12,524 nucleotides of DNA from Erysipelotrichaceae bacterium (GTDB taxonomy: Bacteria; Bacillota_I; Bacilli_A; Erysipelotrichales; Erysipelotrichaceae). Below are positions 6,809 to 12,452 of the stretch, piece after piece. A program made the position numbers and the translations under genes. Where the stretch lies: assembly GCA_017614055.1 (NCBI GenBank), contig JAGACP010000015.1:1-12524 (forward strand). Reading direction: 5' to 3'. The notes below the pieces were generated by a model. It was not told the DNA's origin, ran no database searches, and saw nothing but the letters and a program-made list of their open reading frames with translations. Every line of letters starts with the position of its first letter. Position 1 is the first letter of the stretch.

Positions 6809-6835
6809 AAAAGTGCATCTCACGATGCACTTTTT
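6809..6835. terminator. Bidirectional intrinsic terminator between htpG and the coiled-coil gene
   Basis: AAAAGTGCATC (6809-6819) and GATGCACTTTT (6824-6834) form an 11-bp stem around the loop TCAC. T runs flank it on both strands (TTTTTCTTT on plus, TTTTCTTTT on minus). It lies 7 nt after the htpG stop and 3 nt after the stop of the convergent gene, so it can end both transcripts. Confidence 0.92.
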
Positions 6836-6837
6836 CT

Positions 6838-9800
6838 TTAACCCTTCATGATATCGAGCTTGTTGAGCTCTTTCTTCTTTTCGTTCTGTCTCTGTTCGAG
6901 CAGCTTTCTCGCTTCGAACAGGATAGTGTTGCACTGATACTTGAGCTTGAGCTCTTCCTCGACGATCTCTTCGTCGATTATGCGGTTCTTCTCAAGCAGA
7001 GCGGACAGTTCGTTGTCCAGTTCGGACTTCGTGAACAGAAGCTTCTCGATCTCTTTCTTGTAGTTGTCGGAAGACTGGTTGAAATCGTCGAGACTGTTCT
7101 TGAGATTCTCCTCATGGATATCCGCAAGTCTCTGCTTCTCTTTCTCGTATTCGGTAACGGCCGTAAGGTCCTGATTGTGCATGTTCTGGATGAACTTCTC
7201 CTGCTCGCTCATCGCCTTGGCGATATGGTCGTTGAGGATGTTCTGCTTGTCATGCTCGTCCTTCAGCATCACGTCGTATGCGGAAGATATCTTCCTGACT
7301 TCGTCCTCGAATTCCTTCAGTCTGTTGGTCCTGGTCAGATCGAGGTTCTCGATCTCCTTGTTGATGTTCTCGATGGCCTCGTCGCGCTTGGTCGCAAGCT
7401 GTTCGAGTATCTGTTTGTGCGTCACTTCAAGCTCATCCAGCGTATCCCTGAATTCCTTGGTCATCTTGACGAGGTCGTTCTCGTATTCCTTGTCGACATC
7501 CTCGATCAGGCTAGGCTTGATCCTGAGCAGGTCGTCGTATTCGGTCATGGTCGAAGCTATCTGCTCCTTCAGGAACACGACACGGTCCTTGTGGGCCTTC
7601 TCGAGTTCCCTGGTCTGCTTGACGATGTTCTCGATCTGCTTCGATATGTTGTTGACATGGTCGACGGTCTCGTTCTTCCTCTCGTCCATCAGATACTTTT
7701 TCTCTTCCTCGTAGGTCTGCATCCTTGAGATCTCCAGTGCCTTGCGCTGCTCGAGATTCGCGATCTCGCTGCGCAATGATTCGCACTTCTCACGGATGTC
7801 GCTGTTGAGCTGGTTGTACGCCTGTCTCTTCTCTTCGAGGATGTTGTTGTAGCTGGTCGAAACCTCGTTGAGCTCGGATTCGATCATCTCTTTCTTCTGA
7901 ATCAGGGCGTTTGAAAGCTCCGAACGCTTGATGTCGTTGGCGTCCAGCATGTCGTCCAGCTTCTTCTGGATGCTCTTGGTCTGCTCGATGGCCTCGTTGT
8001 ACTTCTCGGTATTCTGCTGCTCGACGTTCTTTCGGCGCAGATCGATCTCCGTCATCAGCGAGTTGAGATTGTTCTGCTTGACCTGCAGATTCTCGCGGTA
8101 TGAGTTGATCTTGTCCTCGTACTGCTTCTCGACGACTTCCTCGTTGGCCTTGAACCTGAGCTTCTTGTTCTCAAGCTCCTCGTTGTTCTTCTTCTCTACC
8201 GCCTCAAGCTCCTGCTGCTTCTGCTGTCTGACCACTTCGATCTGGCTGGCCAGTTCTTCCTTGTAGTCTTCAAGCTGGGCCTGACGCTTCAGATAGTCGT
8301 CGTTGAGCTGAACTTCCGTATCCTCGACTTCCTTCTTGTATCTGAGATACTCGTTGTTGGTAGAGGTATATTTGTTCTCTATGACTTCCTTCTGCAGGGC
8401 ATTCTTGCGGATGGCGTCGGCCTCCTCTTCGTCGATCTTGTGCTTTCTCGAAGAGATGTCCGCGGCATTCTCGTTGTATTCGACCTGCTTCAGGGTATAC
8501 TCGTCCCTTATCTGCTGCAGCTGGGCCGTAGGAACGGTCTCGTATTCTTCGACGATCCTGGCGACAGCCTCTTCGTGCTGTCTGACGATCTCCTGGATCT
8601 TCTCGTCTCTTTCCTTCTCGAGACTCTGTATCTGCATGGCGTTGTTTGCTTCTTCGGCTTCGATCTCGACTTTCATCTTGGCGATGGAATCATTGAGTTC
8701 ATCCATATGGGCATGCAGATTGGCGATCTTCTGCTGGGACTCGCTGGTCAGCCTGTCGATGTCGACGGACAGTTCATCCTTGGCGCCTTCATATCTCGCC
8801 TGAGCCTGGGCGAACCTGTTGTTCGCACCGCTGACGTTCTGTTCGTACTTGTTGTTGATCTCTTCGAGCCTGCGCTCATGTTCGTTCTTGGCTTCTTCAA
8901 GATCATCGTTGTATTTCTGATTCAGCGAACTTACCTGATTGTCGTATTCATTCTGGATCTGCGTGAGTTTGTCCTCATATCTGCTCACCAGCTCGTTCTT
9001 CTGAGCCTGCAGATCGCTGATGTTGTTCTGATAGATCTCGTCGTTCCTGTCTTTCTTCTGCTTCAGGGCATCGAGACGCTTCTGCAGATCGGCATGCTTG
9101 TCTTCGACATCCTTGAGATATACCATGTGCTCGCGGTCGAGGTTGAGCTTCCTCTGCAGATAGTCGTTGTGATAGTCCTCGGAATCCTTCTGGGCCTTGG
9201 CTATCTCCTTGTTTATCTGGCCGATGTTCTCCTTGACGCTGCCGATCTCGGAATTGATCTTCTCCAGCTTGGCGGCATATTCGTTCTCGGTAGCCTTGAG
9301 CTTCTCGGCATACTCCTGTTTCGTATCGGCGATGATCCTCTCGCTCTCGTTCCTGGCGTTCTCGATGTTCTCGTTGAGTTCGCCGGTCTTCTTCTGATAG
9401 TCTTCCTTGAGACTGTCGAGGTCGTGCATCAGACCCGCGATGACCATCTCGTCGTCTTCGATGTTCTTCTGGTAAAGTGCCTGGCGCTTGGCGAATCTTT
9501 CGTTCAGATAGTCGTTGCGCGAACCCAGACGCTTCTCTTCCTGAGAGAGGTTGAATTCCAGAGCCTGCAGATCGTCGTCGTTCTTCTTCTTGACTTCGGC
9601 GAACTTGCTTTCGAGCTGGTCGACGAACTTCTGATACTGGCTGTTCAATGCAGGTTCGATCTCGCCGATCTTCTCCCTGATCCTGCTGACTTCCTCTTCC
9701 TTCTCGGCGGAATAAAGCTCCAGCTCGTTCTCCAGTTTCTTGATGTTCTCGGCATAGGTGATCTTGTTCTCATCTATGGTCTTCTTCGTGAGATCGATGT

Positions 9801-12057
9801 CGCTGTTGAGCTTCTCGTTGTCTATGATGATGCGGTCTCTTTCGTTCTCGAATCTGCTGATCGCTTCATTGTATTCCTTCTCGTTGCGTGAATTGGTCGC
9901 ATCGATGTCCTTGAGGAAATCGTCCCTTGTCTTGATGAGGGATTTGTACTGGGTATCGACGGAATTGTATTCCTCGACTTTGGCCTGGATTACCTGTTCC
10001 TTCTGACGCTGCAGTTCGGCGATCTTCTCGTTCTCGGCATCCTCAAGTTCCTTGAGATCCTGGACTCTCTGTCTTTCGATCTCCGCAAGATTCTCGTTGA
10101 GTTCGCCCAGAACTCTTGTCGATGTCTCGTTGAGCTCGTCGATCATGTCCTTGATGTCGCTCTTCTGCTTGGTGTTGGCGGCTACATGGGACTCGTAGTC
10201 GTTCTTTATCGTCAGCATCTTGTCCTTGAAGGTATCTTCCTCTTCCTTCTTGGTGGTCCTCAGCTGTTCAAGTCTCCTGTCGATGGCGTCCTTCTTCTCG
10301 TCGAAAGAGGCGACGTTCATGTCGATCCTCGTTCTGTTGGACTGACGCTTCTTTTCCTTCTCGGCCTCGATCCTGCCGTTGATGCCTTCAGCCTCGGCCT
10401 CATAGGACAGTCTGAGCTTGTTCTGCTGATCCTGAAGCCTCTCAAGATCACTTACGAGCTTCTGTCTCTGCTTGTCGAGCTTCTGCAGACTGTCGGTCTG
10501 TTCATTGTTCAGATCATTAAGTTTTGACTTATAGTCTCTGTCGTTTACTTCTATCTCGACATGGAGATCCTCGATCTCCTTGTTCACATGGTCGATGTTG
10601 TCCTTGGCCGCGGCGATCTCTTCGTTGACCCTCTCGATCCTCTCGGCATAGTCCTTCTCGGTAGCCCTGAGTCTGTCCGCATACTGCACGCGGGTCTCCT
10701 CGATCACTCTCTCGCTCTCGCTCTTGGCGTCTTCGATCTCATGATTGAGTTCCTCGGTCTTCTTCTCGTAGTCGTCCTTGAGATCCGCGAAATTCCTGTT
10801 GAGTCCGGAAATGACGTTCTCGGCATTCTCGATGTTCTTCTTGTACAGAGCCTGGCGCTTCTCGAATCTCTCGTTGAGATAGTCGTTCCTTGAAGCCAGA
10901 CGCTCCTCTTCCTGTGAGAGGTTGAACTCGAGAGCCTTCAGGTCTTCCTCGTTCTTGTTTCTTACTTCGTTGAATCTGTTCTGCAGTTCGTCGACGAAAC
11001 TCTGGAACTTCTTGACAAGACCCGGCTGGACATCTTCCATCTGCGCCTTGACGTCTTCAAGTTCCTCTTCCCTGGCAGAGAAAAGCGTCAGCTCGTTCTC
11101 AAGCTGGGCGATGCTGTCGGCATAGGCGATCTTGTTATCTTCGATCGTCCTGTTGGCTTCCTCTATTTCATTGTTCAGACGGTTGCTGTCGGCAACGATC
11201 CTGTCTCTTTCCCTTTCATATTTCGCTACGACGTCGCTGTACTGTCTCTCGTTCTTCAGATTGGTATCGTCGATGTTCTTGACGCACTCGTCCCTGGTCC
11301 TTACCAGAGCCTGGTACTGCGATTCGACGGCGTTGTACTCATCAACTCTCGCCTGCAGCTTCTGATCCTTCTTCCTCTGGATCTCCGCAAGCTTGCGGTC
11401 CTCGGCATCCTCGAGCTCCTTCATGGTCTGGTTCCTGAGTCTTTCGACCTCGAGCAGATCATTGTTCAGATCATTGAGACGCCTTGAAGATTCGACATTG
11501 AGATCGTCGATCTGATCCTCGATGTCGCTCTTCTGTCTGGTGTTCACGGCAGAGAGACTTTCGTACTCCTGCTTGATCGCCAGCATCTTCTCGTTGAAGG
11601 CGGTCTCCGCCTCCTTCTTGGTATTCCTGAGCTGCTGAAGCTTCCTGTCGATGGCGTCCTTCTTCTTCTCGAACGAAGCGACATCCATCTCGGTCTTGGA
11701 CTTCATCAGCTTCTTCTTCTTTTCTTTTTCAGCCTCTATCTTGGCGTTGAGGGTATTCGCATGAGATTCATATGAGTCTTTAAGCTGCTGCTGCTGTTTC
11801 TCCAATTTGGAAAGATCCTTGGCCAGTTTCTGTCTCTGCTTCTCAAGCTTGACAAGATATTCCTGCTGCCTGCTGTTGAGATCCGCAAGCTGAAGCTGGT
11901 ACTCCTTGTCCGTCTCCTTTATTTCAATGCCTAAATCCTCAATCTCCTTGTTGAGTTTCTTAATATCCTTCTTTTTCTCGGCGATAACGACCCGAAGTTC
12001 GCTCTCGTTGAGCCCTTCCAGGTTCATATTTCCATCATTGGTATCCAAAAGACTCAT
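6838..12057 (-). CDS. Giant 1,739-residue coiled-coil protein with long internal repeats
   Basis: I do not recognise this as a named family. Nearly the whole protein is Lys/Glu/Asp/Gln/Asn-rich with heptad spacing of leucines, for example Leu71, 78, 82, 85 and 92. I see no signal peptide, membrane segment, sortase motif or P-loop, so it is not an SMC or Rad50 ATPase and is probably cytoplasmic. A short non-coiled head (residues 1-15) precedes it, and a C-terminal tail ends in LNKLDIMKG. Residues about 29-484 and 485-941 are two copies of one unit. Residues 375-410 and 832-867 share 32 of 36 identities; residues 129-162 and 585-618 share 23 of 34. A third, degenerate copy seems to start at 942. 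Only four prolines occur (345, 802, 1176, 1515), I saw no tryptophan, and there are three cysteines. GGAGGG lies 8 nt before the ATG. It is monocistronic, with its own promoter and terminator. A cytoskeletal or spacer role is possible but only inferred. Confidence 0.9.
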   Translation of the reverse strand: MSLLDTNDGNMNLEGLNESELRVVIAEKKKDIKKLNKEIEDLGIEIKETDKEYQLQLADLNSRQQEYLVKLEKQRQKLAKDLSKLEKQQQQLKDSYESHANTLNAKIEAEKEKKKKLMKSKTEMDVASFEKKKDAIDRKLQQLRNTKKEAETAFNEKMLAIKQEYESLSAVNTRQKSDIEDQIDDLNVESSRRLNDLNNDLLEVERLRNQTMKELEDAEDRKLAEIQRKKDQKLQARVDEYNAVESQYQALVRTRDECVKNIDDTNLKNERQYSDVVAKYERERDRIVADSNRLNNEIEEANRTIEDNKIAYADSIAQLENELTLFSAREEELEDVKAQMEDVQPGLVKKFQSFVDELQNRFNEVRNKNEEDLKALEFNLSQEEERLASRNDYLNERFEKRQALYKKNIENAENVISGLNRNFADLKDDYEKKTEELNHEIEDAKSESERVIEETRVQYADRLRATEKDYAERIERVNEEIAAAKDNIDHVNKEIEDLHVEIEVNDRDYKSKLNDLNNEQTDSLQKLDKQRQKLVSDLERLQDQQNKLRLSYEAEAEGINGRIEAEKEKKRQSNRTRIDMNVASFDEKKDAIDRRLEQLRTTKKEEEDTFKDKMLTIKNDYESHVAANTKQKSDIKDMIDELNETSTRVLGELNENLAEIERQRVQDLKELEDAENEKIAELQRQKEQVIQAKVEEYNSVDTQYKSLIKTRDDFLKDIDATNSRNEKEYNEAISRFENERDRIIIDNEKLNSDIDLTKKTIDENKITYAENIKKLENELELYSAEKEEEVSRIREKIGEIEPALNSQYQKFVDQLESKFAEVKKKNDDDLQALEFNLSQEEKRLGSRNDYLNERFAKRQALYQKNIEDDEMVIAGLMHDLDSLKEDYQKKTGELNENIENARNESERIIADTKQEYAEKLKATENEYAAKLEKINSEIGSVKENIGQINKEIAKAQKDSEDYHNDYLQRKLNLDREHMVYLKDVEDKHADLQKRLDALKQKKDRNDEIYQNNISDLQAQKNELVSRYEDKLTQIQNEYDNQVSSLNQKYNDDLEEAKNEHERRLEEINNKYEQNVSGANNRFAQAQARYEGAKDELSVDIDRLTSESQQKIANLHAHMDELNDSIAKMKVEIEAEEANNAMQIQSLEKERDEKIQEIVRQHEEAVARIVEEYETVPTAQLQQIRDEYTLKQVEYNENAADISSRKHKIDEEEADAIRKNALQKEVIENKYTSTNNEYLRYKKEVEDTEVQLNDDYLKRQAQLEDYKEELASQIEVVRQQKQQELEAVEKKNNEELENKKLRFKANEEVVEKQYEDKINSYRENLQVKQNNLNSLMTEIDLRRKNVEQQNTEKYNEAIEQTKSIQKKLDDMLDANDIKRSELSNALIQKKEMIESELNEVSTSYNNILEEKRQAYNQLNSDIREKCESLRSEIANLEQRKALEISRMQTYEEEKKYLMDERKNETVDHVNNISKQIENIVKQTRELEKAHKDRVVFLKEQIASTMTEYDDLLRIKPSLIEDVDKEYENDLVKMTKEFRDTLDELEVTHKQILEQLATKRDEAIENINKEIENLDLTRTNRLKEFEDEVRKISSAYDVMLKDEHDKQNILNDHIAKAMSEQEKFIQNMHNQDLTAVTEYEKEKQRLADIHEENLKNSLDDFNQSSDNYKKEIEKLLFTKSELDNELSALLEKNRIIDEEIVEEELKLKYQCNTILFEARKLLEQRQNEKKKELNKLDIMKG
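9235..10605 (-). repeat. Coding repeat unit 2 of the giant coiled-coil gene
   Basis: This segment encodes residues 485-941, aligned to unit 1 with one inserted residue between the positions matching 327 and 345. Strong anchors are NKEIEDL, VASF-KKDAID, ALEFNLSQEE, SRNDYLNERF and KATE-YA. At the DNA level the copies differ at many third positions, so the duplication is old and both copies have been kept under protein-level selection. Confidence 0.88.
10606..11973 (-). repeat. Coding repeat unit 1 of the giant coiled-coil gene
   Basis: This segment encodes residues 29-484, the first of two consecutive copies of a 456-457-residue coiled-coil unit. It begins near KDIKKLNKEIEDL and ends near IERVNEEIAAA. 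The proline at residue 345 corresponds to proline 802 in unit 2. Confidence 0.88.
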
Positions 12058-12065
12058 TTGGCTTT

Positions 12066-12098
12066 CCCTCCAAATATTTTACATAGAAAATTATAACA
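12066..12098 (-). promoter_or_regulatory. Extended -10 promoter and ribosome binding site of the giant coiled-coil gene
   Basis: On the minus strand TG-T-TATAAT lies at 12098-12090, an exact extended -10. No clear -35 is seen. The predicted start near 12083 gives a leader of about 25 nt, ending in GGAGGG (12071-12066), 8 nt from the ATG at 12057. The same nine bases TGTTATAAT occur before the Ntdp gene. Confidence 0.6.
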
Positions 12099-12189: not shown

Positions 12190-12263
12190 GGTTCCTTAGC
12201 CAAGTGGTAAGGCAATAGACTGCAACTCTGTGATCACCGGTTCGAATCTGGTAGGAACCTCCA
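12190..12263 (+). tRNA. tRNA-Cys (anticodon GCA)
   Basis: Acceptor arm GGTTCCT (12190-12196) pairs with AGGAACC (12253-12259), followed by T and an encoded CCA. The anticodon loop reads CTGCAAC between ATAGA and TCTGT, giving GCA. The D-loop has GTGGTAAGG and the T-loop TTCGAAT. The 74-nt length is normal. It is the first gene of the cluster. Confidence 0.96.
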
Positions 12264-12267
12264 CAAA

Positions 12268-12353
12268 GGGGATGTGGCGGAACGGTAGACGCGAGGGACT
12301 TAAAATCCCTTGGCAGCAATGTCGTGAGGGTTCAAGTCCCTCCATCCCCACCA
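12268..12353 (+). tRNA. tRNA-Leu (anticodon UAA)
   Basis: Acceptor arm GGGGATG (12268-12274) pairs with CATCCCC (12343-12349), then A and an encoded CCA. The anticodon loop CTTAAAA lies between AGGGA and TCCCT, giving UAA for UUA/UUG codons. The 86-nt length and long variable arm (TGGCAGCAATGTCGTGA region) mark a class II leucine tRNA. It starts 4 nt after tRNA-Cys. Confidence 0.96.
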
Positions 12354-12375
12354 CTTAAATCATTCCGGCCGGTAT

Positions 12376-12452
12376 GCGCCTATAGCTCAACTGGATAGAG
12401 TGTTTGGCTACGAACCAAAAGGTTGCGAGTTCAAGTCTTGCTAGGCGCGCCA
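12376..12452 (+). tRNA. tRNA-Arg (anticodon ACG)
   Basis: Acceptor arm GCGCCTA (12376-12382) pairs with TAGGCGC (12442-12448), then G and an encoded CCA. The anticodon loop CTACGAA between TTTGG and CCAAA gives ACG. The first base is expected to be edited to inosine by TadA so that CGU, CGC and CGA are read. Confidence 0.96.

Follow-up and report, generated by a model that had tools for sequence, protein, structure and literature searches.

A giant predicted helical rod protein, conserved in one genus of Erysipelotrichaceae, with a long unit apparently duplicated in two lineages

HMW2 of the Mycoplasma pneumoniae attachment organelle is a long coiled coil of ~200 kDa; size-changed versions of it are largely functional, and HMW2 with altered coil length gives rise to longer and shorter organelles (PMC8191905). 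Scy and FilP are long actinobacterial rods of the DivIVA-like superfamily with nearly straight helix packing, and DivIVA, GpsB, FilP and Scy carry an N-terminal RGYDxxEVD before the heptad coil (PMC9858780). IF-like rod-domain proteins, FilP among them, are treated together with crescentin in a survey of proteins that have >80 aa of coil and lack a signal, a membrane segment and any known functional domain (PMC2680258). The arms of SMC proteins vary in ~100-aa steps, near one superhelical turn (PMC5344682). The giant rod protein described here joins the few very long bacterial rod proteins; its family is not named in the libraries searched and was found in one genus.

The window analysed (the whole stretch of 12,524 nucleotides) carries the giant gene on the minus strand at positions 6838..12057, as an open reading frame with an ATG start that encodes 1,739 aa and is backed by orthologs and dN/dS ratios (all features of the gene given below are on the same strand). 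The protein (205.8 kDa, pI 4.9, net charge -110) is composed of 15.4% Glu and 11.3% Lys, with 4 prolines and no Trp. When it was compared with itself, offset 456 matched residues 25-332 (54% identical, score 883) and offset 457 matched residues 329-547 (46% identical, score 540), while the next best offset scored just 169. The dominance of these two offsets bears out the preliminary description of a 1,739-aa frame with two consecutive units of 456-457 residues: unit A, residues 29-484 (456 aa; 10606..11973), and unit B, residues 485-941 (457 aa; 9235..10605). The remainder, residues 942-1739 (6841..9234), had been taken for a more degenerate half of the same repeat. It is a separate segment, nearly indel-free among orthologs, in which only the first ~65 residues (9040..9234) are a diverged copy of the unit start; because the C half opens with this piece, the self-match runs ~65 aa past one unit. 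An extended -10 TGTTATAAT (12090..12098) and a Shine-Dalgarno GGAGGG (12066..12071) were read directly, and a terminator-like hairpin followed by T residues was found at 6809..6834, between the convergent giant gene and htpG, so that the gene has signals of its own as first described. The hairpin could also terminate htpG. A promoter pattern scan of the window did not list the extended -10 of the giant gene.

To describe the coil, periodicity was counted on I, L, M, V and F in 22 full-length sequences, window protein included (G166, open at the start, was left out). All 22 showed a hydrophobic stripe with a period of 3.587-3.605 (18/5; 3.601 in the window protein), and its power was 31.7-140.3 vs. 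14.5 or less in any of 20 shuffles of each sequence. This refines the coiled coil of the preliminary description: the period is 3.60 and not the heptad value of 3.5, and the heptad power did not exceed 5.7 in any of the 22. The hendecad of Scy/FilP (3.667) was ruled out with a power of 2.0 or less against 31.7-140.3 near 3.60, and the power at 51/14, a variant of that hendecad periodicity, was at most 2.4. An ideal helix has 3.63 residues per turn, and 18/5 is named a stutter-type period (PMC4786415); with a stripe at 3.60 vs. 3.63 the bundle is nearly straight, with a slight left-handed twist. The phase of the stripe drifts slowly along the window protein, but it jumps within the latter half of unit A, at which point unit A has one residue fewer than unit B. 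Coherent periodicity is not unique to the giant rod: the metagenome protein P0001 has a period of 3.634 with a power of 114.8.

AF2 gave 92% helix in window residues 1-1000 and 90% in residues 91-1290 of the one-unit ortholog G161, in monomer models of modest confidence (pLDDT 62-66, pTM 0.28-0.29). The almost uninterrupted coiled coil of the preliminary description is, as helix, predicted at this confidence, with breaks at prolines and at a few other places. Pro345 of unit A (11023..11025) lies at a break between predicted helices, and Pro802 of unit B (9652..9654) occupies the equivalent site. If the helix were continuous, the window protein would measure ~258 nm, close to the roughly 250 nm estimated before; the giant rod is roughly three to four times as long as crescentin. 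With the coil taken from hydrophobic periodicity and helix prediction, the giant rod falls within the survey definition of IF-like proteins (PMC2680258). The RGYDxxEVD of DivIVA, GpsB, FilP and Scy (PMC9858780) was absent under strict and relaxed patterns from 29/29 sequences, four of which lack their N-terminus.

We searched the protein against known families. The window protein had no Pfam match at E<=0.001, and 12 orthologs at E<=1 matched 14 Pfam families, none of them in more than two members (best, FAM184 at 4e-5). Among NCBIfam models (E<=0.001), SMC_prok_B matched 7/12 orthologs and a mycoplasma helix-rich family 3/12; such matches tend to be the usual behaviour of coils. A chromosome-associated rod, i.e., a headless SMC/MukB-like arm tethering or spacing DNA, has in its favour the weak SMC_prok_B match of the orthologs and of the window protein. 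The window protein scored 29.8 bits, far under the SMC_prok_B cut-off of 567, and its match is confined to the profile's coil region. SMC/Rad50 proteins resemble the giant rod in having an arm length under discrete constraint. The ATP-binding heads found at both ends of SMC/Rad50 proteins have no counterpart here by Pfam, the unit of the giant rod is ~461 aa, and its period of 3.60 differs from the heptad coils of SMC arms (PMC5344682). The net charge also makes direct DNA binding unlikely, and we regard the chromosome-associated reading as improbable.

Two further candidates were set aside. The best PADLOC ZorA match was 27.3 bits, in the window protein only (profile positions 403-787 of 1063; none in G161), and the window protein has no membrane-like segment that could be the MotA/ExbB/TolQ domain of ZorA. 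SpiroCoCo, an NCBI name used in Treponema, is likewise coil-rich and appeared as weak profile hits of 43 and 39 bits, but the periods of the two named hits are 3.645 and 3.459 and the local alignments cover 24 and 23% of the query. SpiroCoCo was not found in the literature search. A search for literature joining Erysipelotrichaceae, "coiled-coil protein" and rumen found none either.

Searches of a protein database scored subsets of candidates and missed known orthologs, so absence cannot be read from them: none of 7,973 candidates scored with the whole protein reached E<=0.001, 4 of 7,995 scored with the profile were weak coil hits, and the C-terminal region gave one partial ortholog (MAG hypothetical protein, Erysipelotrichaceae). 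Among solved structures, 31 matched weakly at E<=1, the best of them with E 0.0002. The status of the family as undescribed is based on the literature searches and the family libraries.

Long alpha-helical rods are common among surface proteins, and this is what speaks for a secreted protein or for a fibre on the cell surface or wall. The peak 19-residue hydropathy of the window protein is 0.49, i.e., no hydrophobic stretch is fit for a signal or membrane segment (judged by hydropathy). No proline follows residue 1515, so the window protein has no LPXTG-type anchor, and no surface-protein Pfam domain was detected in the window protein or the 12 orthologs. A surface location is thus very unlikely, in keeping with the initial reading that ATPase head, signal or membrane segment and wall anchor are all lacking. 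A phage or mobile-element origin, e.g., as a tape measure protein, has length and helicity on its side and is extremely improbable: PHROGs matched none of the 12 orthologs, the window protein had no match in 50,697 phage records, and 27 stretches of viral contigs that fit one peptide pattern did not encode a relative. There is no phage structural neighbourhood; the neighbours are housekeeping genes and tRNAs, and the tree of the C half is broadly in step with the neighbour genes. Neither Pfam nor PHROGs offered a fit, and the first assessment of the protein as an unrecognised one, distinct from SMC/Rad50 and tape measure proteins and with no sign of a surface protein, is upheld. The data support an unrecognised conserved family.

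Conservation in relatives, which had been anticipated, was found within the genus. The protein query matched 28/36 genomes of the genus (the window's own counted) and 6/145 genomes of the family, every one of the six in the window's genus. Profile A1, built from 12 one-unit orthologs, matched 13/195 family genomes (59 genera) and 25/294 order genomes (78 genera), all in the window's genus; 77 other genera sampled across the order gave no ortholog. Several of the ortholog-bearing Erysipelotrichaceae MAGs came from ruminant guts. The majority of the genomes are in fragments and many lack part of their sequence, with 57% completeness for the window's own, and the eight genus members without a match gave just three weak hits (E 0.004 to 1.2). 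Two of these eight (G160, G171) have a contig that stops within a transporter gene, the one next to the giant gene in relatives, and in G170 the contig ends inside htpG; in G147, G158 and G163 the htpG match is also absent. G165 has a completeness of 69%; the giant gene and htpG of its sister G145 are on different contigs. The last, G164 (L155), retains the locus intact, with an FtsQ-type gene, nine tRNAs, a NUDIX gene and htpG but with the giant gene absent, i.e., an empty site. As a side observation, the htpG frame of G165 (L154) is interrupted by two TAA within the match, either as a pseudogene or by an assembly error.

The orthologs of G115, G092, G002 and G151 are at ~20-25% identity and occupy the same locus position; this shared place beside the tRNA cluster supports orthology beyond coil composition at such identity. 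Ratios of dN/dS were 0.05-0.12 in 6 pairs of relatives (rough in 3/6 pairs, where dS is >1), and the giant rod gene is shown to be under purifying selection.

The neighbours of the gene in the window are, by Pfam, DUF402, a ThiT-type transporter, a D,D-carboxypeptidase, RecO, an Era-type GTPase (Era) that carries a KH domain, cytidine deaminase, YbeY and HSP90/HtpG. Divergent from the giant gene lie tRNA-Cys, -Leu and -Arg (12190..12452, plus strand), the start of a tRNA cluster that is conserved in relatives. Of the linkage to tRNA-Cys and htpG proposed for checking, the tRNA side is constant: tRNA-Cys is divergent beside the giant gene in 10/12 relative loci scanned, as in the window. Adjacency to htpG is not general, as htpG lies elsewhere in five genomes (G115, G092, G002, G059, G173). 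In G153 (L064) the tRNA cluster is inverted relative to ten other loci and tRNA-Phe is nearest the giant gene; in G154 tRNA-Phe alone was seen, 2 kb away. The tRNA-Arg(acg) present in the cluster of most other scanned loci was not called by ARAGORN in L063 and L065. The gene had also been described as monocistronic, which may not apply to ten relative loci (L061-L064, L067, L068, L070, L072, L073, L076), where the giant gene is followed immediately, on its own strand, by genes for a sugar-type MFS transporter and an AAT/choloylglycine-hydrolase-like protein.

The C half comprises ~805 aa and aligns in 810 columns among 23 full-length orthologs, and 22/25 invariant columns of A1 fall in it. Leaving the tail aside, four sequences have indels of 1-2 residues next to the first proline, G092 and G002 lack a stretch of 20 residues, and G115 has single-residue differences. 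For the C half, the indel rate in 99 pairs at 35-50% identity was 0.00 events per 100 residues, compared with 0.39 for RecO (28 pairs) and 1.09 for DacA (31 pairs) as controls from the genus genomes. At 15-35% identity, where there is no control protein, the values for the C half and for the units were 0.14-0.21, except for 0.08 in the units at 25-35% (C half, 0.14-0.19 below 35%). Both prolines of the C half, at +231-235 and +572-574, are present in 21/23 full-length orthologs; in the window protein they are Pro1176 (+235; 8530..8532) and Pro1515 (+574; 7513..7515).

Many relatives end in a peptide [LV]D[IV]x...[IV]FK, which in the window protein opens with LDIM (6847..6858) and stops two residues later, with most of the peptide missing. 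In a comparison with FtsZ tails (12 genomes; noted for L081, L080, L076 and L083), the giant-protein tails DDVSNIFKKK of G092, NIPDLFKK of G002 and DDVEDLFRS of G172 resembled the FtsZ tails of the genus (G172: DDVPSFFKTR). The giant rod might accordingly be read as a polar or division-site organiser whose C-terminal peptide mimics the FtsZ tail and competes for or recruits its partners, and MurG, MurB and FtsQ-type genes do lie across the tRNA cluster from the locus in G153, G115, G002, G145 and G173 (Pfam-checked in G153; in G115 FtsQ-type only). The likeness is a short motif of varying spacing that was spotted after the fact and carries no statistics, and it is absent from the window protein, from G115 and from several long forms ending IIS. 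We consider such an organiser unlikely.

We examined how the two-unit form arose. The 23 full-length orthologs comprise ten long forms (1,739-1,802 aa, some of these lengths counting upstream start codons) and thirteen short ones (1,240-1,351 aa). The last unit has 461 aa in 17/23 and 457 aa in the window, G161 and G169; the 488 of G115 is unreliable owing to unresolved bases, and the 407-aa unit of G151 aligns poorly. In unit trees, where each A unit of a long form was taken as the fixed 456 residues preceding its unit B, window units A and B are sisters (support 100/99) and join the single units of G161 and G169 (99/97), whereas the nine other long forms split into a clade of A units (90/88) and one of B units (99/100). 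The trees include long branches. AU tests, made after the tree had been seen, rejected the grouping of window unit A with other A units (p 1e-8) and of window unit B with other B units (p 8e-39), and the rejection also holds without five long branches. Both window units share with G161 and G169 a 4-aa deletion (site matched to within three alignment columns) that is absent from the other 29 units. In a midpoint-rooted species tree from five neighbour genes, each represented in 17-32 of 32 genomes, the window groups with G161, G169 and G157 at a bootstrap of 100, one-unit forms stand near the base, and the one-unit G172 falls among long forms with weak support (47). The tree of the C half does not resolve the long forms as one group.

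One-unit rods of ~1,290 aa look ancestral, and judging from these alignments and trees the ~461-aa unit was duplicated in the ancestor of the nine other long-form species and apparently again in the window's lineage. Gene conversion is able to mimic a recent duplication, and the tree alone does not discriminate: a shared ancestral duplication might have been kept, with the window units later made alike. Such a course would need unit loss in the sister lineage of G161 and G169 as well as conversion, and both the shared 4-aa deletion and the AU tests speak against it, which makes it quite unlikely beside a fresh duplication. The beginning of the unit also resembles that of the C half, and in register: a shift of 0 was best in 23/23, with a score above every control place in 19/23, including 9/13 one-unit forms; the exceptions are G167, G092, G059 and G151. 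This older repeat may explain why one segment was duplicated twice.

Our preferred reading, to which we give about an even chance, is that the protein acts inside the cell as a scaffold or molecular ruler, in the form of a helical rod of set length that is cytoplasmic and homo-oligomeric. One-unit rods would be about 190 nm long and two-unit rods about 260 nm. In the oligomer, several chains would be held together along the nearly straight hydrophobic stripe of 18 residues per 5 turns, the conserved prolines would split the rod into stiff segments of fixed length, and the C-terminal peptide would dock it on a partner. The family, its periodicity, the near absence of indels, the fixed prolines, the purifying selection and the unit duplication in two lineages are observed and helicity is predicted; we infer oligomerisation, intracellular location, docking and the filament or ruler role. 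A filament, scaffold or spacer, as suggested at the outset, stays the best class of explanation. By functional analogy, the giant rod would work like Mycoplasma HMW2, in which altered coil length changes organelle length (PMC8191905). HMW2 serves the gliding organelle of a wall-less pathogen, and the length variants of the giant rod, unlike those of HMW2, are natural and come in whole units. Several findings weigh against a scaffold or ruler: no partner gene is conserved, the neighbours being tRNAs and, in many genomes, htpG; the locus of G164, within the genus, is intact yet lacks the gene; a number of the predicted breaks are not at prolines; and the C-terminal peptide is cut short in the window copy.

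A more specific form of the ruler, which is speculative and rather unlikely, is a natural ruler with an 18/5 helix that would lengthen over evolution by quanta, each close to one turn of the superhelix. Periods of 3.601-3.604 against the ideal 3.63 predict a pitch of 451-503 residues, and the unit, duplicated at least twice, has 457-461; the pitch estimate swings widely with the ideal-helix value, and its match to the unit length may be coincidence. If true, the quantised rod would be the second case, after SMC arms, of a coil length held to whole turns. The natural length series (about 190 and 260 nm) from whole-unit duplications lets coil length be tested as a selected trait by comparison of species.

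The giant rod occurs in bacteria where no MreB passed the family cut-off: 0/36 genus genomes reached it (365.75 bits, strict). The cut-off was passed by 78/195 family genomes, and many genera without the giant rod fail it too. Within the genus the MreB profile gave matches of at most ~64 bits, mostly in ~600-aa frames, which look like DnaK; weaker MreB-like matches of 70-162 bits in ~330-aa frames were seen in other genera and not in the window's genus. The idea that the giant rod replaced MreB is weakened. FtsZ matched 30/36 genus genomes, including 11/11 good ones, and the giant rod was rejected as an FtsZ replacement since FtsZ is present. DivIVA was over its cut-off in 33/36.

An antisense open frame of 483 aa lies opposite the giant gene (8440-9891, plus strand) and is probably a by-product of the skewed composition of that gene (AT skew about -0.4).
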